NCBI GenBank assembly: GCA_017307335.1
Contig: JAFKFJ010000187.1
Span: forward strand, 1 to 43,897
DNA length: 43,897 nt
Reading direction: 5' to 3'
Source: Alphaproteobacteria bacterium
GTDB lineage: Bacteria; Pseudomonadota; Alphaproteobacteria; Acetobacterales; Acetobacteraceae
In this document: piece by piece, positions 8,151 through 43,897 of the stretch
How the letters are laid out: every line of letters starts with the position of its first letter
Numbering within the stretch: position 1 is the first letter of the stretch
Program-made: the position numbers and the translations under genes
Notes under the pieces: model-generated
Told to the model about the DNA's origin: nothing
Databases searched by the model: none
What the model saw: only the letters and a program-made list of their open reading frames with translations

Positions 8151-11100
8151 CTACTCCGCCGGGGCTGTCGTCGTCGGCTGTGGCTTCGCCTTGCGCGCCG
8201 ACCGCCACTCCTCGAGGCGCTGCAGCATCACGAAGAAGCTCGGCACGAACAGCACCGCGAGCAGGGTGGAGGCGAGCATGCCGCTGACCACGGTGATGCC
8301 GATCGAGCGGCGCGAGTTCGCGCCCGCGCCGGTCGCGAACACGAGCGGGAGCATGCCGAGGATGAAGGCGAAGGACGTCATCAGGATCGGCCGGAAGCGC
8401 AGCCGCGCCGCCTCCACCGCCGATTCCACCAGCCCCGCGCCCCGCAGGATGCGGTGCTCCCGCGCCATCTCGACGATCAGGATCGCGTTCTTCGCCGAGA
8501 GCGCGATGAGCAGGATGAGGCCGATCTGGGTGTAGAGGTTGTTGTCCAGGCCAAGCCCCTCCAGCACCGCGACCGGTCCGAGCAGCGACAGCGGCACCGC
8601 GAGGATCACCGCCAGCGGCAGGATCCAGCTCTCATACTGGCCGGCGAGCACCAGATAGACCAGCAGCACGCCGAGCCCGAAGGTCAGATAGATCTGCCCG
8701 CCGACCTGCTTCTCCTGGTACGACATCGCCGTCCATTCGTACCCGACACCCGGCGGCAACGTGGCGCCGATCTGGTCCATCAGCCCGAGCGACTGGCCGG
8801 AGCTGAACCCGGGTGCGGGAGAGCCGATCACGCTCGAGGACGGATAGAGGTTGTAGAGGCTGATCAGCGACGGGCCGACCGAGGGGTGGATCGTCACCAG
8901 CGTGCCGAGCGGCACCATCTGCCCGTTCGGCGTCCGCACCGGCAGCAGCAGGATGTCCCGCTCACGCACACGGAAATCGCCGTCGGCCTGCACATAGACC
9001 TGGAACGTGCGGCCGAACTTGTTGATCTGCGCGATGTAGCTCGAGCCGAGATAGGTGGCGATCGTGTCGAACACCTGGCCGACCGAAATCTGAAGCTGCT
9101 CCGCCTTCACCCGGTCCACTTCCACATTGAGCTGCGGCACCGAGGCGCGGAAGGACGAAGCGACATGCTGCAGCGCGCTCTGGCCCGAGGCGTCGCCGAC
9201 GACCGTGCGGGTGAGGGCGGCAAGCTTGGGGAAGTCGCTGCTGCCGTCCCGCAGCTCGATCTGCATCGTGAAGCCGCCGGAGTTGCCGATGCCCTGGATC
9301 GCCGGCGGGATCACGACGATGTTCTGCGCCTCCTCGATCTTCTCGAGCGCGCGGTTCATCGCGAAATAGATCGAACGGAGGTCCTGCCCGTTCGCCTTGC
9401 CGCGAACCGACCAGTCCTTCAGGATCACGTACGACGCGCCGGCATTGGCGAGGGTGGCGCTGTTGTCGAGCAGCGAGATGCCGGCGATGCCGATGACCTC
9501 CTGCACGCCCGGCACCGCGCGCACCGCCGCCTGCACGCGGTTCAGCACGTCGTTCGTCCGTTGCAGCGAGGCGCCGTCGGGAAGCTGCGTCGCCACGACG
9601 AGGTAGCCCTGGTCCTCGAGCGGCAGGAAGCCGCCGGGAATGCGGGTGAGCCCGTAGAAAGCGAAGCCGATGACGATGAACGCGACCGGCACCGTGACGA
9701 TGGTGTGGCGCACGAGGCGGCCGATCAGGCCGGCGTACCAATCCTCCGCCACGTTGTAGACGGCGTTGAAGCCGCGATAGAAGAAGTTGCGTTTCTCCGG
9801 CGGCGTCGCCGGCCGCAGCCCGTGCGCACACTGCGTGGGTTTCAACGTCGCCGCATTGACCGCCGAGATCAGCGCCGTCACCGCGATCACCAGCGCGAAC
9901 TGCGAATAGAGCTGCCCGGTCAGCCCCGGCAGGAACGCGGCGGGCACGAAGACCGACATCAGCACGAGCGTGATGCCGATGACCGGGCCGAACAGCTCGC
10001 TCATCGCCTTCACCGCGGCATCGTGCGCGCTCAGGCCGCGCTCGATATGGTGCGCCGCACCCTCCACGATGACGATCGCATCGTCCACCACGATGCCGAT
10101 CGCCAGCACGATCGCGAACAGGGTGGAGAGGTTGATCGTGAAGCCGAGCGCCGCCATGCCGGCGAAGGCGCCGATGATCGTCACCGGCACCGTCGTCGCC
10201 GGCACCAGCGTCGCGCGCCAGTCCTGCAGGAAGACGAGGATCACGACCAGGATCAGGATGCCGGCCTCGACCAGCGTTTTGTACACCTCGTGGACCGACA
10301 CCTTCACGAACATCGTGGTGTCGAACGGGATGCCCCAGGCCATGCCCTGCGGAAAGCTCTTGGCCAGCTCGGCGGTGCGGGCCCGCACCTCGTTGGCGAC
10401 GTTGAGCGCGTTGGCACCGGGTGTCTGGTAGATGCCGATGCCGGCGGCCTGCTGGCCGTTCACCGCGAATTTCTGGCCGTAGGTCTGCGCGCCCAGCTCC
10501 ACGCGCCCGATGTCGCGGATGCGGGTGATGCCACCGCTCGAGTCGACCTTGACGATCACGTTCTCGAACTGCTCGGCCTGGTCGAGCCGGCCGGCGACGT
10601 TCAGCGTGAGCTGAAACGGCTGGCCCTTCGGCGCCGGCGGGGCGGCGAGCTGGCCGGCCGTCACCTGCTGGCTCTGCTGCTGCAGCGCCTGCACCACGTC
10701 CTGCGTGGTCAAGGCGCGGGCCTGCATCCGCTCCGGGTCGAGCCAGATGCGCATGGCATACTGGCCGGCGCCGAACACCGTCACCTGTCCCACACCGGGC
10801 AGCCGCGCGAGTTCCGGCTGCATGCTGATGGTCGCGTAGTTCGACAGGAACAGCGCGTCCTGCTTCGGGTTGGAGGATGTGAGAGTGATGATCTGCAGCA
10901 TCGCGGTGGACTGCTTCTGCACCACCACGCCCTGCGCCTGCACCTCCGTCGGCAGCGCGGACAGCGCCGCCGATACCTTGTTCTGCACCAGGACCTGGGC
11001 GAAGTTGAGGTCGGTGCCGATCGCAAACGTGACCGTGAGCGTGTAGCTGCCGTCGCTGGCGCTGGTGGACTGCATGTACAGCATGTTTTCCACGCCGTTC

Positions 11101-24533: not shown

Positions 24534-27285
<2,752 letters not shown>

Positions 27286-27408: not shown

Positions 27409-28887
27409 TCAGGCGAAGCCGAGGAAGCCTTCCATCGCGCTGATCGGCGGTGCCGCCCGCAGCTTGGCGATGTCGGGAACCGGCCGGGCCGGCAGCACCG
27501 CTTCCAGCGCCGCGGCCGCGGCGAGCACGAAGGCGTCGCCGCCGCGCGGCCCCACGATCTGCAGCCCGAACGGCATGCCTACCGAATCGACGCCCGCCGG
27601 CAGGCACACCGCCGGCGTGCCCGCCAGCGTCACGGCGTACGGCAGTGCCAGCCAGTGGAAATAGGTCTTCGTCGGCACCCCGTCGATTTGGGTGGGGTAA
27701 AGCTCCCGCCAGGGGCGGGGGGTGATGGTCATCGCCGGGCTAATAATTAAATCAAAATCCGTGAAGAATTCGACCCAGCGCCGGTACAGCGCCGTGTGCG
27801 CCACTTCGGCCCGCGCCACGTCCAGCGCCGAATACGCAAGCGCCTCCTCGACATTCGCGCGCACGTTCGGCCCGACCTGGTCGGGATGCAGGCGCGACTT
27901 CTCCTCATGGGCGGCCAGGAAGGCCACGCCACGCGCGACCCCGAAGGCCTCGTCGGCGCCGGTGCAGTCCGGCGTCGTATCCGCCGCGCGCCCGACGAGG
28001 CCGCGCAGCGGCGCCGTGCGGGCGGCGAAGGTCTCGCGGATCAGCCGCTCGGTGGGCGCGAAGCCGAAATCCGGCGTGAATGCGACGCGCAGGCGCGACA
28101 GGTCGACCGGCGGCAGCGGCGTGAAATCCTTGGCGCGGCGGACCTGCTTGCCGTGCACCGTGGTCGCGAGCGGGTCGCGCGCATCGTCGGCGACCATCGC
28201 CGACAGCATCAGCGCCAAGTCGGCGACCGAGCGCGCCATCGGGCCGCCGGTGGAAAGCGGCGACCAGCCGAGGCCGCGCCGCTCGCTCGGCACCAGCCCG
28301 GCCGTCGGGCGGAAGCCGACGATGCCGCAGAACGCCGCCGGGTTGCGCAGCGAGCCGCCCATGTCGGTGCCGGAGGCGAGCGGCACCATGCCGGTCGCCA
28401 GCGCCACCGCCGAGCCGCCGGAGGAGCCGGCGCAGGACAGGCGCGGGTCGAACGGGTTGCCGGTCGCGCCATAGACCGCGTTGCGCGTGTTGGCGCCGGC
28501 GCCGAACTCCGGCGTGTTGCTCTTGCCCAGGATGATCGCGCCCGCCGCGCGCAGGCTCGCGACGGTCCGCTCGTCGGCCGCCGGCACGTTGTCGGCGAAC
28601 AGCGGGCTGCCGAACGTCGTGCGCAGCCCCGCGGTTTCCTCGAGGTCCTTGATCACCACCGGCAGCCCGTGCAGCGCGCCGAGCGCGTCGCCGCGCTTTA
28701 CCGCCGCCTCCGCCGCACGCGCCGTCGCGCGCGCCCGGTCGAAGTCGCGGGCGACGACGGCATTCACCGCATGGTCCACCGCCTCGATGCGCGCGATGCA
28801 GCTCTCCACCAGTTCCACCGGCGAGAGCTGGCGCGCGCCGATCAGCCGGCGCGCTTCCGTGGCGCCAAGATCGCAGGGCTCGGTCAT
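27409..28887 (-). CDS. Amidase signature family amidase
   Basis: 492 residues of the amidase-signature fold. The Ser-cisSer-Lys triad is visible: Lys80 in GLPVVIKDLEE, Ser155 in the GSSGGSA motif and nucleophile Ser179 in GTDMGGSLRNPA. It hydrolyses an amide bond; the family includes GatA, allophanate hydrolase, urethanase and aryl-acylamidases, and the substrate is not predictable. No GatB/C neighbours are present, so tRNA transamidation is unlikely. Its ATG is 4 nt after the stop of the GGT-family gene, so the two form an operon with GGT first. A cluster of AT-rich codons (TTA ATT ATT) occurs at about 27740-27770, unlike the rest. Confidence 0.92.
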   Translation of the reverse strand: MTEPCDLGATEARRLIGARQLSPVELVESCIARIEAVDHAVNAVVARDFDRARATARAAEAAVKRGDALGALHGLPVVIKDLEETAGLRTTFGSPLFADNVPAADERTVASLRAAGAIILGKSNTPEFGAGANTRNAVYGATGNPFDPRLSCAGSSGGSAVALATGMVPLASGTDMGGSLRNPAAFCGIVGFRPTAGLVPSERRGLGWSPLSTGGPMARSVADLALMLSAMVADDARDPLATTVHGKQVRRAKDFTPLPPVDLSRLRVAFTPDFGFAPTERLIRETFAARTAPLRGLVGRAADTTPDCTGADEAFGVARGVAFLAAHEEKSRLHPDQVGPNVRANVEEALAYSALDVARAEVAHTALYRRWVEFFTDFDLIISPAMTITPRPWRELYPTQIDGVPTKTYFHWLALPYAVTLAGTPAVCLPAGVDSVGMPFGLQIVGPRGGDAFVLAAAAALEAVLPARPVPDIAKLRAAPPISAMEGFLGFA

Positions 28888-32921: not shown

Positions 32922-34379
32922 TCAGACGCCGATCGGCATGTGCTCCGGCGCGCGGGTGACGGCCCGCGGTGCAGTGAGTTCCTTCCAAGCCGAAAGCGCC
33001 CGGTTCACGGCCGGGAACGGCTTGCGGCCGATGAAGCGGCCGCGCCCCGGCCGCGGCTGGTCGTTCCTGCCGTGCGACCAGACCACCTCGCCGCGCGACA
33101 TGGTGTAGCGCGGCAGGCCGCGCACCGCGAACCCCTCGAACACGTTGTAGTCGATGATCGACTTCTGGTTGGCGGCCGAGATCGTCTTCGAAAGCTTGGG
33201 GTCCCACACGACGATGTCGGCGTCCGCCCCGGGCATGATCGCGCCCTTCTGTGGATAGATGTTCAGGATCTGCGCAATGTTGGTCGACGTGACGGCGACG
33301 AACTCGTTCGGCGTCAGCCGCCCGGTCTCCACACCCTTGGTCCAGAGCACGGAGAGCCGGTCCTCCAGCCCGCCGGTGCCGTTCGGGATCTTGCGGAAAT
33401 CGCCGAGGCCCATGCGCTTCTGCTCGGTCGTAAACGCGCAGTGGTCGGTCGCGACGACGTGCAGCGACCCCGCCGCGAGCCCCGCCCACAGGCTGTCCTG
33501 ATGCGCCTTGCCGCGGAATGGCGGCGACATCACGCGCTGCGCGGCGTGATCCCATTTCTGGTTGAAATACTCGCCCTCATCGAGCGTGAGGTGCTGGATC
33601 AGCGGCTCGCCGTACACGCGCATGCCGAGCTGGCGGGCGCGGCGGATCGCCTCGTGCGCCTGCTCGCTGGAGGTGTGCACGATGTAGACCGGCACGCCGG
33701 CGGCATCGGCGATCATGATCGCGCGGTTGGTCGCTTCGCCCTCAACCGAGGGCGGGCGCGAGAAGGCGTGGCCCTCCGGCCCGGTCGCGCCCTCGGCCAT
33801 GTACTTGTCCTGCAGCGCCGCGACCACGTCGCCGTTCTCGGCGTGCACCAGCGGCAGGGCACCGAGAGCGGCGCAGCGCGAGAAGGAGGCGAACATCTCG
33901 TCGTCGTTCACCATCAGCGCGCCCTTGTACGCCATGAAGTGCTTGAAGGTGTTGATGCCGCGGCTAACGACGGTGGCCATGTCCTCGAAAATCTGCTGCG
34001 ACCAGCCGGTGACGCACATGTGGAAGGAATAGTCGGACGACGCCTGCCGCTGCGCCCGCCCCTCCCACGCCGCCAGCGCCGGCAGCATCCCTTCGGGGCC
34101 GGGAATGACGAAGTCCACGACGCTGGTGGTGCCGCCGGAGAGGGCCGCGAACGTGCCGCTCTCCCACGTCTCCGCCGCAGTCGTGCCCATGAACGGCATT
34201 TCGAGATGGGTGTGCGGGTCGATGCCGCCCGGGATCACATAGGCCCCGGCCGCATCCACCACGGTGTCGCCGGACAGGTTCGGGCCGACCGCGGCGATGC
34301 GCTCGCCCTCGACCAGGATGTCGGCCTCGTAGGACCGATCCGCGGCGACGATGGTGCCGCCCTTGATGACCGTGGACAT
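32922..34379 (-). CDS. hydA: D-hydantoinase / dihydropyrimidinase family amidohydrolase
   Basis: 485 residues. Seen: GGIDPHTHLE (metal ligands His56, His58), FMAYKGALMV with the carboxylated Lys152, LVHAENGD, IVHTSSEQA and VATDHCAF, giving a complete binuclear site. The family opens cyclic amide rings: dihydropyrimidines, hydantoins and, in related clades, allantoin. The sequence pattern favours dihydropyrimidinase/hydantoinase over allantoinase. ATG 34379 has AGGAAGGAG upstream. It is convergent with the acyltransferase and divergent from the flavoprotein gene across a 384-nt region. No beta-ureidopropionase or N-carbamoylase gene is in the window. Confidence 0.93.
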   Translation of the reverse strand: MSTVIKGGTIVAADRSYEADILVEGERIAAVGPNLSGDTVVDAAGAYVIPGGIDPHTHLEMPFMGTTAAETWESGTFAALSGGTTSVVDFVIPGPEGMLPALAAWEGRAQRQASSDYSFHMCVTGWSQQIFEDMATVVSRGINTFKHFMAYKGALMVNDDEMFASFSRCAALGALPLVHAENGDVVAALQDKYMAEGATGPEGHAFSRPPSVEGEATNRAIMIADAAGVPVYIVHTSSEQAHEAIRRARQLGMRVYGEPLIQHLTLDEGEYFNQKWDHAAQRVMSPPFRGKAHQDSLWAGLAAGSLHVVATDHCAFTTEQKRMGLGDFRKIPNGTGGLEDRLSVLWTKGVETGRLTPNEFVAVTSTNIAQILNIYPQKGAIMPGADADIVVWDPKLSKTISAANQKSIIDYNVFEGFAVRGLPRYTMSRGEVVWSHGRNDQPRPGRGRFIGRKPFPAVNRALSAWKELTAPRAVTRAPEHMPIGV

Positions 34380-34410
34380 CGCGCACTCCTTCCTGCTCGC
34401 CGCTCCGCTG

Positions 34411-34422
34411 GTTGCGCGCAAC
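34411..34422. promoter_or_regulatory. Palindrome GTTGCGCGCAAC upstream of the hydantoinase
   Basis: A perfect 12-bp palindrome, 31 nt upstream of the hydantoinase ATG. Its position suits an operator, but such GC palindromes can arise by chance in this composition. No regulator is assigned. Confidence 0.25.
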
Positions 34423-34666: not shown

Positions 34667-34763
34667 TAATTAAGAGTTATCTTTATTCTCTTTTCCAAAC
34701 ACAGCACAGATGATTTTCGGAGAGTGTCGACCGAAACGCCGCTTGTGGGATGGAGCGATGCCA

Positions 34764-36254
34764 ATGAACACTGTTCCGTCATTGCGCCTGGCCCCGATGG
34801 ATAACGAGCGGTCCGCCGGCCGCAGGGTCGCCGTCATCGGCGCCGGCTTCAGCGGCACCATGGTCGCGATCCATCTGCACGCGCTGCTGCCGCCTGCCTG
34901 CCAGGTCCTGCTCTGCGAGCGCGACCGCTTCGCTTGCGGTACCGCGTACGCGACGCCATTCGCGCATCACATGCTGAACGTCCGCGCCACGGGCATGAGC
35001 GCATTCCCCGCCGATTCTTCGCATTTCGTGAACTGGCTCGCTGCGCGCGCGACCGACCGTGCCGGCGAGGTGATGACGACCGAGGCCGGCGCATTCGCCT
35101 CGCGGCGCGTGTTCGGCGACTATCTCTCGGAACTCCTCGAAACCGCGCGCGCGACGGCGGGGAAGCGCCGGATCGCGCTGCGCCCTGGCGAAGTCGTCGA
35201 CATCGAGCGTGCCGGCGTCGGATTCCGGTTGCACTTCGCCGATGGCGGCGTCGAGCGGGTTGGTGCGGTGGTGCTCGCCATGGGCAACCTTCCGCCGCCG
35301 CCGAGCGGCATGCCGGGCCGTCTGGCCGATGCCTGGAGCGCGGGCGCGACCACGGGGCTTCGTCCCGACCTCCCGGTCCTCATCGTCGGCACCGGCCTGA
35401 CGATGATCGATCTGGCATTGCAGATGCGGGATGCCGGGTTCGCCGCGCCGATCATCGCGCTGTCGCGGCGCGGCCTGCTGCCGCGGCGCCACCGGCCGAC
35501 GACCCCGTGGCCCACACCCGTCTTCACCGACCGCGAACGCCGCTCGCTCCTTGCGCTGCTCGACTGCGTGCGCCGGGAGGTGCGAGCGGCGGCGGCGCGC
35601 GGCGTGGACTGGCGCTGCGTCATCGACAGCCTGCGCCCGATGACCGCCGATCTCTGGTGCGGCCTGCCGCCGCGCGAGCGCGCGCGGTTCCTGCGCCATC
35701 TGCGTCCGTTCTGGGACGTGCACCGGCACCGGCTGCCCGGGCCGATCGCGGACCGGATCGACGGCATGCGCGCCCAGGGGCAGCTCGACATCCGGCGCGG
35801 GCGCCTCCTTGACATGCGCGCCGGCGAGTCCGGCGTTGAAGTGACCGCGCGCCTGCACGGCGCGTCCGAGCCGACGCGCTTCGTCGTGCAGCGCGTGATT
35901 GATGCGATGGGGCTCACCGGGCTGCACGGTTCCGTCGATCCACTCGCGGTCGCCCTCATGCGCCGTGGCCTCGCGCGGGCCGATGGCCTCGGCCTGGGCC
36001 TCGATGTCACGTCCACGCTGGCGGTGATCGACGCGTCCGGCCATGCGGCGACGCAGATGTGGGCGCTCGGGCCGGTGGTTCGCGGCGCCCTCTGGGAATG
36101 CACCGCGGTGCCGGAGATCCGCGTGCATGCGGTGCGCGTGGCACACGCCGTCGCGGAAGCATTCGCCGAGCGGCGCGCGCCGCCCGTTGGCCGTCCGCGC
36201 CCGCAGCCCCGTTCCGCCGCGCCGTGCGCCGCATGGCGCGCGCGGACTATCTAG
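34764..36254 (+). CDS. FAD/NAD(P)-binding oxidoreductase, CreE/HpyO-type (COG4529-like)
   Basis: 496 residues from ATG 34764, chosen because GGAG (34752-34755) lies 8 nt before it; ATGs at 34758 and 34710 are alternatives. Seen: RRVAVIGAGFSGTMVAIHL (FAD dinucleotide motif, residues ~20-38), CERDRFACGTAYATPFAHHMLNV, typical of the FAD-NAD(P)-binding domain shared by HpyO and CreE-type enzymes, VLIVGTGLTMIDLAL (second dinucleotide motif), and a C-terminal MWALGPVVRGALWE. Described members include a urate hydroxylase and an aspartate N-monooxygenase, but most are uncharacterised. Substrate is open. The 3' end overlaps the convergent lysR by 8 nt. Confidence 0.82.
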   Translation: MNTVPSLRLAPMDNERSAGRRVAVIGAGFSGTMVAIHLHALLPPACQVLLCERDRFACGTAYATPFAHHMLNVRATGMSAFPADSSHFVNWLAARATDRAGEVMTTEAGAFASRRVFGDYLSELLETARATAGKRRIALRPGEVVDIERAGVGFRLHFADGGVERVGAVVLAMGNLPPPPSGMPGRLADAWSAGATTGLRPDLPVLIVGTGLTMIDLALQMRDAGFAAPIIALSRRGLLPRRHRPTTPWPTPVFTDRERRSLLALLDCVRREVRAAAARGVDWRCVIDSLRPMTADLWCGLPPRERARFLRHLRPFWDVHRHRLPGPIADRIDGMRAQGQLDIRRGRLLDMRAGESGVEVTARLHGASEPTRFVVQRVIDAMGLTGLHGSVDPLAVALMRRGLARADGLGLGLDVTSTLAVIDASGHAATQMWALGPVVRGALWECTAVPEIRVHAVRVAHAVAEAFAERRAPPVGRPRPQPRSAAPCAAWRARTI

Positions 36255-37209
36255 CGAGCGGCTCCGGCGTATCCGCCGCCGCCTGCTGCTGCAGCCACGA
36301 TCGCAGCTTCTGCAGCGCCGGATCGCCGGCGCGGGTTTCGTGGAACAGCACGTGGTAGGCGCCGGCGCTCGCCACGTCCGGCTCGAACACCCGCACGATC
36401 CGGCTCGCGCCGTCATAGTGCCGCAACAGCACGGTCGGCACGATCGCGATGCCGCGCCCGGCCCGCGCCGCCTCCATCGCCATGAAGAAATGGCCGAAAT
36501 GCAGCGCATCCCGCTCCGGATCGAACCCGGCGCGGTGTGCGCGCAGCCAGTCGTGCCACGCGTAGCGGCGCGTGGTCACGTGGATCAGCCGGAAGCGGCC
36601 GAGCGCTTCGACGTTTGCGGGACGACCGGCCGCCAACAGCGCGGGCGAGGCGATGGGCACAAGAATGTCGGGAAACAGGAACTCCGAGCGCGCCCCGCGC
36701 CAGTCGGTGAGCATCTGGAGTTCGATGCGCGGCTGATCGGCGCCGAACCGCTCCCCCGGCAGCGCGCCCACCCGGATTGCCGCGTCCACCGCGCGGGCCT
36801 GCAGGTCGACCGGCTCGATCGAGCTGATGATCCTGAGCTCCACGTCGGGCACCTGCTGCGCGAAGCTGGCGAGGCGCGGCATGAGCCAGAACGCGGCGAT
36901 GGTCGGCAGCACGCTGATCGTCAGGACGCGGCGCTGGCGCCGTCCCTTCAGGCGCAGCGTCGCCCGCTCGATCTCATCCAGCGCCGCCGCCGCGACCGCC
37001 TGATAGGCGCGCCCGGCCTCCGTCAGTTCCAGCCGGCGGATGAAGCGGCGGAACAGCGGCATCGACAGAAAATCCTCCAGCACCCGGATCTGCCGGCTGA
37101 CCGCGCTCTGGGTCACGCCGAGTTCCTCGGCGGCGCGGGTGAAGGAGCCGTGGCGCGCCGCGGCCTCGAACGCGCGCAGTGCGGTCAGCGGGGGCAGGTC
37201 ACGGCGCAT
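36247..37209 (-). CDS. LysR-family transcriptional regulator (GcvA-like), divergent from the importer operon
   Basis: 320 residues. The winged helix-turn-helix is at 1-65 (LTALRAFEAAARHGSFTRAAEELGVTQSAVSRQIRVLE), followed by the periplasmic-binding-like effector domain. The N-terminus and FRRFIRRLELTEAGRAY are closest in pattern to GcvA-type regulators. It is transcribed away from the ABC operon, with only 139 nt between starts, and the T-N11-A dyad at 37238-37252 lies in that space. It probably controls the importer and the two enzymes downstream in response to their substrate; this is inferred from the arrangement. Confidence 0.92.
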   Translation of the reverse strand: MRRDLPPLTALRAFEAAARHGSFTRAAEELGVTQSAVSRQIRVLEDFLSMPLFRRFIRRLELTEAGRAYQAVAAAALDEIERATLRLKGRRQRRVLTISVLPTIAAFWLMPRLASFAQQVPDVELRIISSIEPVDLQARAVDAAIRVGALPGERFGADQPRIELQMLTDWRGARSEFLFPDILVPIASPALLAAGRPANVEALGRFRLIHVTTRRYAWHDWLRAHRAGFDPERDALHFGHFFMAMEAARAGRGIAIVPTVLLRHYDGASRIVRVFEPDVASAGAYHVLFHETRAGDPALQKLRSWLQQQAAADTPEPLAR

Positions 37210-37232
37210 GGCCTCTCGTTCCGGGCGGAGCG

Positions 37233-37257
37233 CATGAATGAGAATATCTCATGCATG
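37233..37257. promoter_or_regulatory. Putative LysR-type operator (T-N11-A dyad)
   Basis: The core ATGAGA-ATA-TCTCAT (37238-37252) is a perfect 6-bp dyad satisfying the T-N11-A rule of LysR regulators. Flanking CATGA and GCATG extend it with 4 of 5 matches. It lies 28 nt upstream of the lysR start and about 96 nt upstream of the importer ATPase start, a normal place for an autoregulating activator site. Confidence 0.6.
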
Positions 37258-37348
37258 CTGCAAAGTCATCGTTTGCGGGCGGCGCCCGCCCGACCCTAGC
37301 CTTTCCGCCGGATGAACCGGGCACGCGCCCGGGCAGGAGGTGTGCGGC

Positions 37349-38842
37349 GTGGCGGCTTCCCTGGAAGCGGACCGGATCGCCAAGGCTTTCGGGGCGACCC
37401 TGGCGCTGCGCGGCGCGTCGCTGCACCTCCAGCCGGGCCGTGTGCATGCCCTGCTGGGCGAGAACGGCGCCGGCAAGAGCACGCTGGTCAAGATCATCGT
37501 GGGCGCGCTGGCGCCCGATGCCGGCGCGCTGCGGATGGCCGGCCGGCCGGTCGTCTTCCGCTCGGTGCGCGAGGCGATGGCGGCGGGGATCGTGCCGATC
37601 CATCAGCATCTGAGCCTGTTCCCGCATCTCTCCGTGCTGGAGAACCTCTCCGCCTTCGCGCTGGGCTGCACGCGCCGCGCCGCGGCCAGCAGCGCCCTGC
37701 TGCCGCGCGCGGAGGCTGCCGCCCGGCTGGAGACGGTGGGGCTGCACCTCGACCTGGACCAGCCGGTTGCGGCGCTGTCACTGGGCCAGCGCCAGTTGCT
37801 GGAGATCGCCCGCAGCGTCGGGCGGGAATGCCGCGTCCTGGTGCTCGACGAGCCGACGGCCGCGCTGAACCACAGCGAGGCGGCGCGGCTGTTCGAGGTG
37901 GTCCGGCGCCTGTGCGCCGCCGGCACCGCGGTGCTGTTCATCAGCCACCGGCTGGACGAGATCGACGCGGTGGCGGACGACGTGACGGTGCTGCGCGACG
38001 GGCGCGCGGTGATCGCCGGCACGCCGCGGTCGCACCTGTCGCGGGAGGCGCTGGTGCGCGCCATGCTGGGCACCGCGGTGGCCGCGGCCACCCGGCACCT
38101 GCCGGAGCCCGGCGCGCCGGTGCTGGTCGCCGCCGGCCTGCGCCCGGGTCCGGGCGACGCGCCGGCGGACTGCGTGGTGCGTGCGGGCGAGGTGGTCGGC
38201 CTCGCCGGCCTGGTCGGGTCCGGCGCATTGGAACTCGCCGCGGCACTGGCCGGCGCGCGGCCGGCGGCGGGGCAACTCCATGTCGCCGGGCGACGCCTGC
38301 CCCCCGGCGACCGGCAGCAGGCGGTGGCGCTGGGCGTCGGCTACGTGCCGGGCGACCGGCACGCCGAGGGGCTGTTTCCCGTGCTGTCGGCGCTGCAGAA
38401 CGCCTCCGCCTGCAGCACGCGCGGTCTCGCGCCCGCCGGTGTGCTCTCGCCGGCGCGGGAGGCGGCGCGGATGCTGCCCTGGCTGCGGCGGATGAAGCTC
38501 CATCCGTTCCTGCCCGCCATGAAGGCCCGCACGTTCAGCGGCGGCAACCAGCAGAAGCTGCTGATGGCGCGCAACCTGGCGATCGACGGGCTGCGCGTGC
38601 TGGTGGTGCTGGAGCCGACCCGCGGCGTCGACATCGCCGCGCGCGAGACCATCCATGACGCAATCGCCGACATCGCGCGGCAGGGCGTGGCCGTGGTGCT
38701 GGCGACCAGCGATCTGGACGAGGCAATGGCGCTGGCGCACCGCGTGCTGGTGGTCCGCCACGGCCGCATCGCGGCCGAGATCTTGCGCGGCGCGGCACGG
38801 ACGAACCTGCTCGACGCGCTGGCCGGGCAGGCGGCGGCGTGA
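37349..38842 (+). CDS. Sugar-type ABC importer, double ATPase subunit (RbsA/LsrA-like)
   Basis: 497 residues from GTG 37349; AGGAGG at 37335-37340 is 8 nt upstream, whereas an earlier in-frame GTG at 37340 overlaps it. Two nucleotide-binding domains. The first is complete: GENGAGKST (Walker A), LSLGQRQLLEIA (signature), VLVLDEPTAAL (Walker B), FISHRLDEI (H-loop). The second lacks the Walker A lysine (GLVGSGALEL), usual for this family, has FSGGNQQKLLMARNL, but its Walker B reads VLVVLEPTRGVD, with Leu in place of the normal Asp. It energises import with the two permeases that follow. The permease start overlaps the stop as GTGA. Confidence 0.93.
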   Translation: MAASLEADRIAKAFGATLALRGASLHLQPGRVHALLGENGAGKSTLVKIIVGALAPDAGALRMAGRPVVFRSVREAMAAGIVPIHQHLSLFPHLSVLENLSAFALGCTRRAAASSALLPRAEAAARLETVGLHLDLDQPVAALSLGQRQLLEIARSVGRECRVLVLDEPTAALNHSEAARLFEVVRRLCAAGTAVLFISHRLDEIDAVADDVTVLRDGRAVIAGTPRSHLSREALVRAMLGTAVAAATRHLPEPGAPVLVAAGLRPGPGDAPADCVVRAGEVVGLAGLVGSGALELAAALAGARPAAGQLHVAGRRLPPGDRQQAVALGVGYVPGDRHAEGLFPVLSALQNASACSTRGLAPAGVLSPAREAARMLPWLRRMKLHPFLPAMKARTFSGGNQQKLLMARNLAIDGLRVLVVLEPTRGVDIAARETIHDAIADIARQGVAVVLATSDLDEAMALAHRVLVVRHGRIAAEILRGAARTNLLDALAGQAAA

Positions 38843-39837
38843 CCGCCCTCGCCCTGCCGCTGCCGGTGCGGAGCGCGTGGCGCCGCTGGCGGCCGGGGGC
38901 GGCGGCGTGGACGACGCTCGGCGTGTTCCTGCTGTTCGCCGTGCTGGTGCCGCGGTTCGCGAGCAGCGGCAACCTCGTCAACGTGCTGCGGGTCGCCGCC
39001 ATCCTGTGCGTCGCCGCCTGCGGGCAGGCGATCGTGCTGGTGCTCGGCGGCATCGAGTTCTCTTTCGGCTCGTCGGCGGCGCTGGCGAGCGTGGTCGGGG
39101 TGCTGGCGGTGCCCTGGCTCGGCCCGGCCGGGGGGCTGGCCGCCGGGGGCGCCGTGGTGATCGCGATCGGGGCGCTGAACGGCGCGTTGATCGCCGGGTT
39201 CGGGCTGCCGCCCTTCGTCGTCACGCTCGGCATGCTGATGGCCGCCGCCGGCGCCGCGGCAAGCCTGGTGGGCGGGCAGCCGATCGACGCGCCACCGAGC
39301 GCCGCCTTCGCCTGGCCCGCCGCCGGGTCCGTCGCCACGATCCCGGTGCCGATCCTGCTGGGCGCGGCGGCAGTGACAGTGCTGCACGCGCTGCTGTCGC
39401 GGTCGCGCCTCGGGCGGCTGTGGTATCTCGCCGGCGCCAACCCGGTCGCCGCGCGCCTCTCCGGGATCGCCGTCGGCCGGGTGACGTTTCTTGGCTACCT
39501 CGTTGCCGGCGCGTTCTGCGCCGTGACGGCAGTGGTGCTGACCAGCCGGGTCGGCTCCGGCCAGCCGAACCTCGCGCCCAACCTGCCGTTCGAGAGCATC
39601 GCCGCCTGCGCGATCGGCGGCATTCCGCTCGCCGGCGGCGAGGGCCGGGCGCATCAGGTGGTGTGCGGCGTGCTCGTCATCGCCATGATGAACAATGCCG
39701 TGGTGCTGCTGAACTTTCCCATCGCGGCGCAGCAGCTCGTGATGGCGGTGGTGATCATCGGCGCCGTGCTGCTGCAGAACGCGGGTTCGCTGCCCGTGAT
39801 GCTGCGCCGCGCGCTGACCCGCCGGCCGAACGCATGA
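38839..39837 (+). CDS. Sugar-type ABC importer permease 1 (BPD_transp_2)
   Basis: 332 residues with about 8-10 hydrophobic helices. Seen: NLVNVLRVAAILCVAACGQAIVLVLGGIEFSFGS, the TM region typical of RbsC-like permeases, PPFVVTLGMLMAAAGAA, and AACAIGGIPLAGGEGRAHQVVCGVLVI, which is the coupling segment contacting the ATPase. The start is GTG in a GTGA overlap with the ATPase gene. It differs from permease 2, so the channel is probably a heterodimer as in LsrC/LsrD-type systems. Confidence 0.9.
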   Translation: MTALALPLPVRSAWRRWRPGAAAWTTLGVFLLFAVLVPRFASSGNLVNVLRVAAILCVAACGQAIVLVLGGIEFSFGSSAALASVVGVLAVPWLGPAGGLAAGGAVVIAIGALNGALIAGFGLPPFVVTLGMLMAAAGAAASLVGGQPIDAPPSAAFAWPAAGSVATIPVPILLGAAAVTVLHALLSRSRLGRLWYLAGANPVAARLSGIAVGRVTFLGYLVAGAFCAVTAVVLTSRVGSGQPNLAPNLPFESIAACAIGGIPLAGGEGRAHQVVCGVLVIAMMNNAVVLLNFPIAAQQLVMAVVIIGAVLLQNAGSLPVMLRRALTRRPNA

Positions 39838-40808
39838 GGACGGCGCTGCGTCTTCTCGGGGGACAGCGTTTCCTGGTGGCGCCGCTCTGCCTGCTCGGCG
39901 CCGTCATCGTGTTCGCGGCGAGCGCACCCGAGTTTCTGACGCTCGGCAATGTGAGCAATGTCGGTGCCCAGATGTGGGTGCTGGCGCTGCTCGCCGTCGG
40001 GCAGATGTTCGCGATCGTCACTCGCGGCTTCGACATCTCGGTGGGCGCGGTCGCGGCGCTGTCGAGCACGATCGCCGCGCATGCGGTGAATGCGCTCGGC
40101 CCGGCGGGATTGCTGGCGGGCCCGCTCACCGGCCTGCTGTGCGGGACGCTCACCGGGTTCCTGATCGGCTTCCTGCGGCTGCAACCGATCGTCGCCACGC
40201 TCGGCATGATGATCGGCGTGCGGGGCCTGGCACTGCTCGTCACCGGCGACGGACAGGTGGTGCCGCTGCACGATGCCGATCTCGCGTCCTGGCTCGCCTT
40301 CGACCCCGCGTTCGGGCTGCCGCCGGCGGACTGGGGCGCCATCGGCTGCATCCTGCTCGCGGGCGCGCTGCTGGGCCGCGCGGTGCTCGGGCGGCGGCTC
40401 GTCATGCTCGGCTCCAACCCGGATGCCGCGCATCTCGTCGGCATCGACACGGCGCGGACGCAGTTGCGCGCGTACCAGCTCTGCGGCGGATTTGCTGGCC
40501 TCGCGGGCGTGCTGGTGCTGCTGCGCGCAGGCACCGGCCTGCCGACCGACGGCGCGGGGATGGAGCTGCAATCCATCGCCGCGGCGCTGATCGGCGGCAC
40601 GGCGCTGTCCGGCGGGGTCGCACGGGTGTTTCCGGTCGTGCTTGGCGCGGCGTTCATCCAGGCGGTGCTGACCGGCCTCGACCTACAAGGCGTGTCGCCC
40701 TTCATCGCACAGATTGTGGTCGGGCTGGTCATCGTCGCCGCCGGCTTCCTGGAATTCGCGCTGCGGCGCTTCCAGGGTTTCGCATTCCACAGAAGGAGCT
40801 GGACATGA
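39834..40808 (+). CDS. Sugar-type ABC importer permease 2 (BPD_transp_2)
   Basis: 324 residues, again with about 8-10 helices. Seen: LALLAVGQMFAIVTRGFDISVGAVAALSS, QPIVATLGMMIGVRGLALLVTG, MLGSNPDAAHLVGID, and IAAALIGGTALSGGVARVFPVVLGA, all RbsC-family landmarks. It is joined to permease 1 and to the binding protein by ATGA overlaps. The AGGAG ribosome binding site of the binding protein lies inside its last codons. Confidence 0.92.
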   Translation: MRTALRLLGGQRFLVAPLCLLGAVIVFAASAPEFLTLGNVSNVGAQMWVLALLAVGQMFAIVTRGFDISVGAVAALSSTIAAHAVNALGPAGLLAGPLTGLLCGTLTGFLIGFLRLQPIVATLGMMIGVRGLALLVTGDGQVVPLHDADLASWLAFDPAFGLPPADWGAIGCILLAGALLGRAVLGRRLVMLGSNPDAAHLVGIDTARTQLRAYQLCGGFAGLAGVLVLLRAGTGLPTDGAGMELQSIAAALIGGTALSGGVARVFPVVLGAAFIQAVLTGLDLQGVSPFIAQIVVGLVIVAAGFLEFALRRFQGFAFHRRSWT

Positions 40809-41767
40809 AACGCATCCTGGCCGCGGCTGCCTGCGCGGCCGCACTCCTCGGCGGCATCGTGGCGCCGACCGAAGCGGCGACGAAAAAGACGATCGGCCTC
40901 GCGGTGCCCAGCCTGACCTCGTCGTTCTGGATCTCGGCCGTCTATGGTGCCGAGCACGAGGCGGCGAAGGACGGCGTCTCGCTGATCAAGCTCAATGCCG
41001 GCGGGGATGCCAATGCCAGCCAACAGATTTCCCAGATCCAGGACCTGATCCAGCGCAAGGTGGACGCGATCATCGTCGGCGCCACCAACGGCGAGGCGGT
41101 GGCCGCGGTCGTCAACCGCGCGGCGCAGCGCGGCATTCCGGTCGTCGGGCTGAGCTCGCCGCCGCAGACCACGCATCTCGTCTCCGTCGTCAGCGCCGAT
41201 CACTACGACATGGGCAGGCTGCAGGCCCAGTGTCTCGCGAAGGCGATGGGCGACAAGGGCAACGTCGCCATGCTCGCCGGGCCGAGCGGCCAGTCCTGGG
41301 CGGACATGCGTGCCAAGGGGTTCAAGGAGACGCTCGCGAAGGACGCGCCCACGATGAAGATCGTGGCCGAATCCCACCTCGCCGACAACCGCAACGCGGC
41401 GCTGACCGTGGCGGAGGACTGGGTGCAGCGGTTCCCGGCGCTGAACGGCGTCTATACCGCGACCGACGACATGGCCGCCGGCGCCATCTCCGCCTTCAAG
41501 AACGCCGGCCGGCAGAACGACGTCAAGGTTTCCACCTCGAACCTCAGCCCCACCGCCCAGGATTTGCTCAAGCAGGGCGCGCTGGTGTGCACCTCGATCC
41601 AGCAGGTCGTGGCGCAGGGGCGTGCCGCGCTGGATCAGGCGGTCGCGGCCGCGAACCACCAGGCGGTGACGAAGGAAGTCGTGCTGCCGGCGCTGCTGGT
41701 CACACCGGAGAATCTCGCCACGGTGGACCTGAGCGCCGTGACCGCGCCGGCGAGCTATCGCCCGTAA
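40805..41767 (+). CDS. Periplasmic substrate-binding protein of the sugar-type importer (Peripla_BP_4)
   Basis: 320 residues with a Sec signal (1-24, cleavage near TEA/A) and a type I periplasmic-binding fold. Seen: IGLAVPSLTSSFWISAVYGAEHEA (first strand and helix), SQIQDLIQRKVDAIIVGATNGEAVAAVV, GNVAMLAGPSGQSWADMRAKGFKETL, and a hinge-crossing C-terminal lobe. The pattern is that of RbsB/TorT-like proteins, not clearly AI-2-binding LsrB. The ligand is not readable. Its position as last transport gene, after ATPase and two different permeases, matches the lsrACDB order. A 35-nt gap with GGAGAG precedes the deacetylase gene. Confidence 0.92.
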   Translation: MKRILAAAACAAALLGGIVAPTEAATKKTIGLAVPSLTSSFWISAVYGAEHEAAKDGVSLIKLNAGGDANASQQISQIQDLIQRKVDAIIVGATNGEAVAAVVNRAAQRGIPVVGLSSPPQTTHLVSVVSADHYDMGRLQAQCLAKAMGDKGNVAMLAGPSGQSWADMRAKGFKETLAKDAPTMKIVAESHLADNRNAALTVAEDWVQRFPALNGVYTATDDMAAGAISAFKNAGRQNDVKVSTSNLSPTAQDLLKQGALVCTSIQQVVAQGRAALDQAVAAANHQAVTKEVVLPALLVTPENLATVDLSAVTAPASYRP

Positions 41768-41802
41768 CCGCGCCCCGTCCCGCGTTGCACGGAGAGACCG
41801 AC

Positions 41803-42705
41803 ATGCTGCCCACGCACGACCGCTTCCGCTATTCGCCGATCGTCGATCGCCCCGACTTCACCTGGCCGGGCGGGCGGCGGCTGGGCGTCTACGTCGCGCT
41901 GTGCGTGGAGCATTTCGCCTATGGCTCCGGCCTGGGGCTCGCCTATTCTCCCGGCCTCAGCCATCCCAACAGCTACAACTGGGGCTGGCGGGAATACGGC
42001 AACCGCGTGGGCGGCTGGCGGCTGGCGAAGCTGTTCGACGAATTCCGCCTGCCGCTGACGGTGCTGCTCAACACCGCCTGCTACCATCACTGCCCGCAGC
42101 TCGTCGCCGCGTACCGTGCGCGCGGCGATGAGATCGTGGCGCATGGCCGCACCAACTCCGAACATCCGAACGGCATGGAACCTGAGACCGAGCGCCGGAT
42201 GATCGCCGAGGTGACGCAGACGATCCGCCGGCACGAGGGCGGCCCGCCACTCGGCTGGATGAGCCCCGGCGCGCATCCGAGCGCCGCGACCGAGGACCTG
42301 CTGGCGGAGGCCGGCTATCGGTACACGCTCGACTGGCCGATGGATGACCAGCCGGTGTGGATGCAGACGCGGCACGGGCCGCTGCTCAGCGTTCCCTATC
42401 CGCACGAGGTCAACGACGTGCCGATGATCGTACTGCACGACGGCACGGCGCGTGCGTTCGCCGACATGGCCATCGACAATTTCGAGGAGATGCTGCTGCA
42501 GTCGAAGGACCAGCCGCTGCTGTACGGCATCACCATCCACACCTTCATCGTCGGCCAGCCGTTCCGGCTGCGGCAGCTTCGCCGCGTGCTGGAACACATC
42601 AACCGGGTGCGCGATCAGGTCTGGTTCACGACCGCGGGGCGGGCCGCGCAGCACTACGCGGCGCAGTTTCCGCCACCGGCGCACGCGAGCCAGGCGCCCC
42701 GATGA
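41803..42705 (+). CDS. Polysaccharide deacetylase-fold amidohydrolase (PuuE/HpPgdA-like branch)
   Basis: 300 residues, no signal peptide, so cytoplasmic. Seen: LGVYVALCVEHFAYG (motif 1, with Glu36 where CE4 deacetylases have Asp), LPLTVLLNTACYHHCPQLV, DEIVAHGRTNSEH (His114 kept; the second CE4 histidine position is Asn118), GWMSPGAHPS (the motif normally carrying RxPxG), and a C-terminal LLYGITIHTFIVGQPFR. The layout resembles PuuE-type allantoinases and H. pylori PgdA more than extracellular chitin deacetylases. Encoded within an importer operon, it probably hydrolyses the imported compound, but the reaction is unknown. The stop overlaps the next start as ATGA. Confidence 0.8.
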   Translation: MLPTHDRFRYSPIVDRPDFTWPGGRRLGVYVALCVEHFAYGSGLGLAYSPGLSHPNSYNWGWREYGNRVGGWRLAKLFDEFRLPLTVLLNTACYHHCPQLVAAYRARGDEIVAHGRTNSEHPNGMEPETERRMIAEVTQTIRRHEGGPPLGWMSPGAHPSAATEDLLAEAGYRYTLDWPMDDQPVWMQTRHGPLLSVPYPHEVNDVPMIVLHDGTARAFADMAIDNFEEMLLQSKDQPLLYGITIHTFIVGQPFRLRQLRRVLEHINRVRDQVWFTTAGRAAQHYAAQFPPPAHASQAPR

Positions 42706-43532
42706 GCAAGCATTCGCGCGCCGCCGCGCCCCCGGTGCGGATCGCGATCGCCGGGCTCGGGGCGATCGGCACGAAGGTCATGGAGGCGCTGGACGCGGGC
42801 ATTCCCGGCTGCGCGCTGGCCGCGGTCGCAGCGCGCGATCTCGCTCGGGCGCGGACGCGCGTTGCGCAATTGCGCCAGCCGGTGCCGGTGGTGGCGCTGC
42901 ACGCCCTGGAACCGCTCGCCGACATGGTGGTCGAGTGCGCGCCCGCGCATCTGCTGCCGGAGCTTGCAACGCCGTTTCTGCGCGCCGGCAAGACCGTGGT
43001 CGTGCTGAGCGCGAGCGCGCTGCTGTCGCACCCGGCGCTGATCGACCTGGCGCGACAGAATGGCGGGCAGGTCGTGGTGCCCACCGGCGCGCTGCTCGGC
43101 CTCGATGCGATCACCGCCGCGGCCGAGGGCGCCATCCATTCCGTGGCGATGGTCACGCGCAAGCCGGTGCGCGGACTGGTCGGTGCGCCCTATCTCGTCG
43201 CGAACGACATTCGCATCGAGGATATCGACGCGCCGGTCTGCGTCTTCCGTGGCACGCCGCGCGACGCGGCGGTGGGGTTCCCGGCCAATCTCAACGTGGC
43301 GGTGGCGCTGTCGCTTGCCGGCATCGGACCCGACCGGACCACGCTGGAGATCTGGGCCGACCCGTCGCTCACCCGCAACACGCACAGCGTCGTCGTCGAA
43401 TCCGACGCGGCGCGGCTGACCATGACGATCGAGAACATCCCGAGCGACAATCCGAAAACCGGGCGCATCACGGCGCTTTCCGTCATCGCCTGGCTGCGCA
43501 AGCTGCGCGCGCCGCTGCGCGTCGGCACCTGA
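42702..43532 (+). CDS. L-aspartate dehydrogenase family NAD(P)-dependent oxidoreductase
   Basis: 276 residues. Seen: the Rossmann motif IAIAGLGAIGTKVMEAL (about 14-30), VVECAPAHLL, VVLSASALL, VVPTGALLGLDAI, and the C-terminal NLNVAVALSLAGIGPDRTTLEIWADP followed by NTHSVVVES, whose His is the conserved active-site histidine of AspDH. Such enzymes interconvert aspartate with iminoaspartate/oxaloacetate and ammonia. In NAD biosynthesis they would pair with nadA/nadC, which are absent here. Coupling by ATGA to the deacetylase and importer suggests a catabolic role, perhaps on the amine or amino acid released. Confidence 0.87.
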   Translation: MSKHSRAAAPPVRIAIAGLGAIGTKVMEALDAGIPGCALAAVAARDLARARTRVAQLRQPVPVVALHALEPLADMVVECAPAHLLPELATPFLRAGKTVVVLSASALLSHPALIDLARQNGGQVVVPTGALLGLDAITAAAEGAIHSVAMVTRKPVRGLVGAPYLVANDIRIEDIDAPVCVFRGTPRDAAVGFPANLNVAVALSLAGIGPDRTTLEIWADPSLTRNTHSVVVESDAARLTMTIENIPSDNPKTGRITALSVIAWLRKLRAPLRVGT

Positions 43533-43556: not shown

Positions 43557-43897
43557 TCAGAGCTGCAGATGCGCCGCGATATCGGCCGCCGCGTCGGGGT
43601 CGGCGGCCTCGCCTTCCGCCACCTTCTCGCCGCCCTTCAGCACCGCGTAGCGATGCGCGATGCGCAGCGCGAAGCCGACATGCTGCTCCACCAGCAGGAT
43701 CGCGCGCCCGTTCTGCTCCGCCTCCGCGCGCAGCACGGCCGCGATGCGGTCGATGTTGGAGGGTTGCAGCCCCTCCGTCACTTCGTCGATCAACAGCAGC
43801 CGCGGCGCGCCCATCAGCGCGCGCGCCAGCAGCAGCATCTTCTGCTCGCCGCCGGAGAGCGTGCCGGCCTTCTGCGCGAGCCGCGCCGGGAGGAACG
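43557..43897 (-). CDS. livF: Branched-chain amino acid-type ABC importer ATPase (LivF-like), N-terminal part outside window
   Basis: The last ~113 codons of an ATP-binding subunit, read from the window edge. Seen: TLSGGEQKMLLLARALMG (signature), LLLIDEVTEGLQPSNIDRI (Walker B with the LivF-type ITERI-like continuation replaced by SNIDRI), and ILLVEQHVGFALRIAHRYAVLKGGEKVAEG (H-loop region). This pattern is that of LivF/UrtE-type subunits of the HAAT family, importing branched-chain amino acids, amides or urea. The Walker A half lies beyond the window. It converges on the aspartate dehydrogenase gene with 24 nt between stops. Confidence 0.9.
   Translation of the reverse strand, partial: FLPARLAQKAGTLSGGEQKMLLLARALMGAPRLLLIDEVTEGLQPSNIDRIAAVLRAEAEQNGRAILLVEQHVGFALRIAHRYAVLKGGEKVAEGEAADPDAAADIAAHLQL

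Follow-up and report, generated by a model that had tools for sequence, protein, structure and literature searches.

Positions 1–43,897 of contig JAFKFJ010000187.1 of an Acetobacteraceae bacterium (assembly GCA_017307335.1), called the window below, hold six plus-strand genes at 37340–43532. They encode an ATP-binding cassette (ABC) importer, a PuuE-type hydrolase and an aspartate dehydrogenase (AspDH) family enzyme, and lie divergent to a LysR-family regulator gene. We propose, at roughly even odds (a probability of about 0.5), that this operon serves the uptake and catabolism of a small cyclic imide or ureide with an aspartate skeleton, which would be broken down via aspartate. The estimate covers the outline of the pathway, and any single ligand is rated lower; compounds of the hydantoin-5-acetate, dihydroorotate or aminosuccinimide types are the likely candidates.

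In the proposed pathway, the LysR protein would control the operon from a palindrome at 37234–37256, and a CUT2-type importer would take up the cyclic imide or ureide. The PuuE-type hydrolase would then open the ring without a metal, giving a half-amide or an N-carbamoyl acid, from which an amidase would release aspartate. This amidase belongs to the cluster in relatives and would have to come from elsewhere in the window strain. Subsequently, the dehydrogenase would convert aspartate to iminosuccinate, whose hydrolysis (assisted by RidA in relatives) would give oxaloacetate, and an RraA-family enzyme of the relatives would carry oxaloacetate on to pyruvate.

Gene order, conservation and operator

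The grouping of these genes is more than chance, as the order recurs in ten genera and the palindrome occurs once in the 4.34-Mb host genome. The reading frames and overlaps were verified against the sequence and its translation. Adjoining genes overlap at a GTGA (38839) or at ATGAs (39834, 40805 and 42702), and the sole gap among the six, of 35 nt (41768–41802), precedes the hydrolase gene. The operon holds neither a kinase gene nor LsrFGK genes. Thus, the layout and the absences described by the original prediction, which had been made from the sequence of the window, are exact.

The same prediction held that its reading would fall if the two enzyme genes were not conserved with the importer. 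Using the hydrolase as the query against a collection of bacterial and archaeal genomes, we obtained 80 loci, and the neighbourhood search found the opposite. All seven genes (the LysR gene and the six of the operon) stand in the same order and orientation in 23 of the 80, on genome contigs from Bosea/Boseaceae, Ancylobacter, Azospirillum, Microvirga, Enterovirga, Nitratireductor, Pseudomonas, Pandoraea, Cupriavidus and Pararobbsia. These loci span the Alpha-, Beta- and Gammaproteobacteria, and two plasmids, one from Azospirillum brasilense and one from Bosea sp. F3-2, share the seven-gene order. Mesorhizobium, Poseidonocella, Solirubrobacterales and Leisingera carry the genes in rearranged form. 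On a quickly built hydrolase tree, linkage to the AspDH gene is clustered, with 5 changes against about 27 in shuffles. Within the host’s own order, a hydrolase of more than 57% identity is present in this genome alone among 299, and three genomes of the host’s genus gave no hydrolase match at E ≤ 1e-60; the operon was therefore probably acquired horizontally.

Two peculiarities of the collected loci are recorded here. The contig of locus L077 is titled Candidatus Campbellbacteria and encodes a hydrolase identical to that of Natronohydrobacter (L074), so this contig is probably misbinned. In Leisingera (L090), a lyase-family gene beside the cluster (9395–10518) is annotated as two pieces, the first of which matches Pfam Lyase_1, of the fumarase/aspartase superfamily.

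The regulator scores 276 bits against the NCBIfam GcvA model, just below the cut-off of 288. It is of LysR type by its two Pfam domains, its divergent gene and the T-N11-A palindrome in the common intergenic region between the LysR and ABC genes. This palindrome, ATGAATGAGA-ata-TCTCATGCAT, is 23 bp long, and near-identical palindromes stand at the equivalent position in most of the related loci. It has one match in the window at up to 3 mismatches (0.08 expected) and a single match in the whole host genome at up to 2 mismatches, with no further sites there. Across 26 genomes or records (about 149 Mb), 23 distinct sites were found at up to 1 mismatch, all of them within 6.1 kb of the hydrolase gene of the respective genome, and a reversed control pattern had zero matches in the same set. 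Equally, no operator was found at up to 2 mismatches in 51 loci (954 kb) of hydrolase homologues outside the cluster.

In relatives, the operator also marks other genes. It lies just upstream of a RidA gene in eight of them (L001, L003, L004, L012, L021, L022, L028 and L088), upstream of a pair of genes for an aldehyde dehydrogenase (ALDH) and a thiamine pyrophosphate (TPP) enzyme in L019, between the LysR and hydrolase genes in the rearranged L031, and upstream of the ABC genes in L034. In Pseudoroseomonas (L096), where there is no hydrolase, it lies between the LysR and AspDH genes. The operator-bearing genes thus form one small regulon, whose sites the LysR protein would bind.

Dehydrogenase, accessory genes and a proposed route through aspartate

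The dehydrogenase scores 416 bits against the aspartate dehydrogenase model NF009825 (cut-off 253), which places it in the L-aspartate dehydrogenase family. Its nearest solved relatives are aspartate dehydrogenases, and the motifs of the family, N226, H228 and the NPKT segment (NPxT), are kept. Close AspDH relatives outside the cluster adjoin aspA with a dicarboxylate/amino acid symporter gene, a DASS anion symporter gene or ectoine uptake genes, and another adjoins a hydantoin and D-aminoacylase set. Those AspDHs that have been characterised act specifically on aspartate and oxaloacetate and hardly use pyruvate, 2-oxoglutarate, glutamate or alanine (PMC5554190). From the family score, the motifs, the gene context of relatives and this substrate range, aspartate is likely to be the hub of the pathway, with the deaminating direction presumed. 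In Methylobacterium oryzae (L104, 10001–10653), an AspDH relative beside aspA and a symporter gene aligns in two pieces with no annotated intact gene and is possibly a decayed gene.

Compared with NadX/AspDH of NF009825, the window protein is alike in both domains and in the catalytic motifs, but its gene sits in a catabolic uptake operon and not with nadA/nadC. A closer parallel in organization is provided by the ectoine uptake and catabolic clusters of Rhizobium and Mesorhizobium (L098 and L100), which combine an importer, catabolic enzymes and an AspDH 51–54% identical to that of the window. Those clusters, however, have an importer of the EhuABCD family, other hydrolases and a GntR regulator.

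The related loci add further genes, which were counted as members of protein clusters across the loci. A short-chain dehydrogenase/reductase (SDR) gene is found in at least 16 clustered loci, an RraA-family gene in 24 and an amidase gene in 24, mostly downstream, and a RidA gene in 11, often on the opposite strand. These extra genes point to a route through aspartate, and RidA as a member of the relatives’ regulon fits an imine product of the dehydrogenase. A succinate-semialdehyde dehydrogenase-type ALDH gene accompanies the TPP enzyme gene in three relatives (L019, L031 and L090). The combination of a NodB-fold imidase and an amidase in one pathway has a precedent in HxnM and HxnN of nicotinate breakdown in A. 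nidulans (PMC9304392). There, as with the P. putida YZ-26 imidase, an amidase of the amidase-signature type acts after the ring has been opened; the HxnM/HxnN pathway is fungal and has neither an ABC importer nor an aspartate dehydrogenase.

Several observations weigh against this scheme. First, no amidase, RidA, SDR or RraA gene adjoins the window operon, and when the RraA, SDR and amidase proteins of relatives were searched in the host genome, the best matches were 37–42% identical. Second, HxnM and its P. putida homologue sit in the HpPgdA branch of the fold, not in the PuuE branch. Third, the ALDH and TPP genes of the three relatives suggest that the keto acid is not oxaloacetate or that it is processed in another way. 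Fourth, characterised AspDHs aminate oxaloacetate 5–10 times faster than they deaminate aspartate (PMC5554190).

The third point would be met if the importer and ring opener act as proposed and the AspDH-family enzyme has shifted to another amino acid or imine, of glutamate type or a substituted aspartate, the resulting keto acid being cleaved or decarboxylated by the RraA-family, TPP and ALDH enzymes of relatives. The frequency of the RraA-family and SDR genes in the clustered loci agrees with such a shift, as do the three ALDH–TPP pairs and the operator before that of L019. Yet the NF009825 score is well over the equivalog cut-off, N226/H228 and NPxT are invariant, and AspDH relatives adjoin aspartase and ectoine uptake genes, so that we regard a changed specificity as unlikely.

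The fourth point raises the possibility of nitrogen scavenging, whereby the hydrolase, with or without an amidase, would free ammonia and the dehydrogenase would work reductively, fixing it on oxaloacetate. The kinetic preference for amination is offset by a high Km for ammonium, about 20 mM in one AspDH (PMC5554190). Furthermore, in relatives the common operator precedes the gene for RidA, a member of a family that acts on free imines, and relatives of the dehydrogenase adjoin genes for the catabolism or uptake of aspartate. Fixation of ammonia by this enzyme thus seems improbable.

Hydrolase and importer

The original prediction placed the hydrolase in a PuuE/CE4 type (CE4, carbohydrate esterase family 4) and called it a deacetylase, and the latter label proved wrong. 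Its modelled structure (mean predicted local distance difference test score, pLDDT, 84.9) matches the PuuE allantoinase best, with Z 34.1 and a root-mean-square deviation of 2.5 Å over 285 residues, while classical CE4 deacetylases reach Z of at most 21. The D-H-H metal triad of CE4 enzymes is lost, since N118 occupies the place of the second metal histidine of HpPgdA. Together with E36, H114, D181, D182, N204, D205, H246 and R255, N118 is invariant or nearly so in 32 AspDH-linked and 56 other homologues. HpPgdA, the closest solved relative of the YZ-26 imidase, also matches the hydrolase less well than PuuE does (43.5 versus 101.3 bits). By fold and by the lost triad, the protein is of the PuuE-like, metal-free NodB-fold amidohydrolase type, and PuuE itself has been described as metal-independent (PMC10967932; PMC3084791). 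We infer from the family, the lost triad and the gene context that the enzyme opens a cyclic amide, imide or ureide without a metal.

This bears on the layout envisaged earlier, of import, hydrolysis and dehydrogenation. A single conserved, LysR-linked importer–hydrolase–dehydrogenase transcription unit was borne out; the N-deacylation step was not, and ring opening fits better because an invariant Asn replaces the metal His and PuuE is the best fold. A true N-deacetylase or N-deacylase acting on an imported N-acyl amino acid or amino sugar could draw on the Pfam Polysacc_deac_1 match, but this match is weak (28.4 bits), and with the triad absent, N118 invariant and both fold and sequence closest to PuuE, such an activity is very improbable.

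The likeness to PuuE allantoinase (TIGR03212; PDB 3cl6) includes the fold, the absence of the CE4 metal triad and the shared H114, D181/D182, N204-D205, H246 and GxPxR motif. The two differ in that identity over the structural alignment is about 28%, the gene context is another one, and loop residues diverge, for example SPGAHPS in the window protein where PuuE has TGRTGPN. An ordinary allantoin operon, for which PuuE as the best family match would speak, is scarcely credible given a TIGR03212 score of 128.8 bits against a cut-off of 424.6, the lack of allantoate and ureidoglycolate genes in the conserved cluster and the presence of an aspartate dehydrogenase, which has no role in allantoin breakdown.

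Hydrolase homologues of 50–60% identity adjoin genes for N-carbamoyl-D-amino-acid hydrolase, dihydropyrimidinase, racemase or amidase, and those of Rhodobacteraceae adjoin a TetR_C_29 regulator, an NMT1-type importer, an aminohydrolase and a SnoaL-like gene. The latter set, with its PuuE-like gene, recurs in Rhodobacterales (L052, L054–L058, L065, L067–L069, L071, L073, L074, L076 and L079) and is probably another undescribed pathway for a cyclic compound. In the host genome, two PuuE-like paralogues adjoin amidase genes (C250:18658–20816 and C59:5279–6965; the PuuE-like query gives a short match at C59), and the pairing may represent a module for ring opening that recurs.

The importer has the composition of the CUT2 type, with a tandem ATPase, BPD_transp_2 permeases and a Peripla_BP_4 protein in one operon. 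It resembles RbsABC, AraFGH and LsrABCD in these components, in drawing both permeases from one family and in its LsrACDB-like order. It differs from them in its changed pocket residues, in the missing sugar kinase and LsrFGK and in the two enzymes of amide and aspartate metabolism held in its operon. Its proteins score best against models for sugars, autoinducer-2 (AI-2) or TorT, all below the NCBIfam equivalog cut-offs. The model of the binding protein (pLDDT 89.4) is a periplasmic protein of ribose/TorT type, and structure searches with it returned sugar-type proteins about equally, singling out no ligand. When the protein is compared with the ribose-binding protein 2ioy, G, S, S, T and N stand in place of the ribose contacts N64, D89, R90, N190 and D215 (E. 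coli numbering), respectively; F15, R141 and Q235 are retained. Across 28 orthologues these replacements are constant or almost constant, most of them being present in every one. Since most ribose contacts are replaced, a plain pentose is an unlikely ligand.

Sub-cut-off scores, the changed pocket, the co-travelling enzymes and the operator all agree with the original prediction that this is neither a standard sugar nor an AI-2 system. An ordinary CUT2 importer of a sugar or AI-2, followed by two enzymes unconnected with it, would account for the best-scoring models, but we give it very little credence, as the enzymes travel with the importer and, in the rearranged L031, the hydrolase gene stands under the identical operator.

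None of the open-access papers searched joins these genes. The combination of the parts, the operator and the pathway seem not to have been described before, with all parts coming from known families, and the kind of cluster, a ligand-specific ABC uptake and catabolic operon, is already known. More tentatively, and at less than even odds, we suggest that the cluster is a LysR-governed pathway devoted to a natural cyclic imide or ureide so far not recognised as a nutrient of bacteria, with a CUT2 importer that has lost sugar binding, a metal-free PuuE-type imidase and a course via aspartate. If true, this would define a catabolic pathway that is new, and the importer and hydrolase families would each gain a substrate. 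Such genes carry the annotations ‘polysaccharide deacetylase’, ‘sugar ABC transporter’ or ‘TMAO reductase system protein TorT’, and our analysis argues against these labels. With one binding protein, one regulator and one ring-opening enzyme, the conserved cluster and its specific operator make up a compact, self-contained set through which the ligand could be sought. Solving the ligand would re-annotate part of the large PuuE-like family and would probably reveal a nitrogen compound used by many soil and plant-associated bacteria.

Coordinates and neighbouring genes

Table 1. Genes of the operon, the divergent regulator gene and the operator-like palindrome in the window
Feature	Position	Strand	Characteristics
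LysR-family regulator (GcvA-like)	36247..37209	-	divergent from operon; Pfam HTH_1 and LysR_substrate
Operator-like palindrome ATGAATGAGAATATCTCATGCAT	37234..37256	.	T-N11-A; consensus ATGCATGA-N7-TCATGCAT
Tandem ABC ATPase, CUT2 type (AraG/LsrA/RbsA-like)	37340..38842	+	GTG start; two PF00005 (ABC_tran) domains
Permease 1	38839..39837	+	BPD_transp_2; GTGA overlap with ATPase gene
Permease 2	39834..40808	+	BPD_transp_2; ATGA overlap
Periplasmic binding protein	40805..41767	+	Peripla_BP_4; ribose/TorT fold, altered pocket; ATGA overlap
PuuE-type cytoplasmic amidohydrolase	41803..42705	+	Polysacc_deac_1; proposed ring-opening imide/ureide hydrolase
L-aspartate dehydrogenase family enzyme	42702..43532	+	Asp_DH_C (PF01958) and NAD_binding_3; ATGA overlap

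Three other genes of the window were considered in connection with the operon and rejected. The amidase gene at 27412–28887 is not the missing amidase, its product being 26–44% identical to the cluster amidases. The gene at 34710–36254 (plus strand), for a FAD/NAD(P)-binding oxidoreductase with an NAD_binding_9 domain, has no match in the related loci. The third, at 32922–34421 (minus strand), encodes a dihydropyrimidinase/D-hydantoinase (TIGR02033, 563 bits, over the cut-off) about 80% identical to the products of Ancylobacter genes, and its linkage is inconsistent across relatives. In two of six Ancylobacter genomes the homologue lies 6–7 kb from the operon; in the remaining four it is on a different contig or some 550 kb distant, and the Bosea and Microvirga genomes gave no match at E ≤ 1e-100. 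The proximity in the two Ancylobacter genomes is apparently due to chance.

Elsewhere in the window, a gene for a protein with a Hint_2 (intein/hedgehog-like) domain lies at 25882–27285 (minus strand), between the enolase and amidase genes. A partial gene for an ABC ATPase of UrtE/LivF type, at 43557–43897 (minus strand), is convergent with the operon and is cut by the window end.

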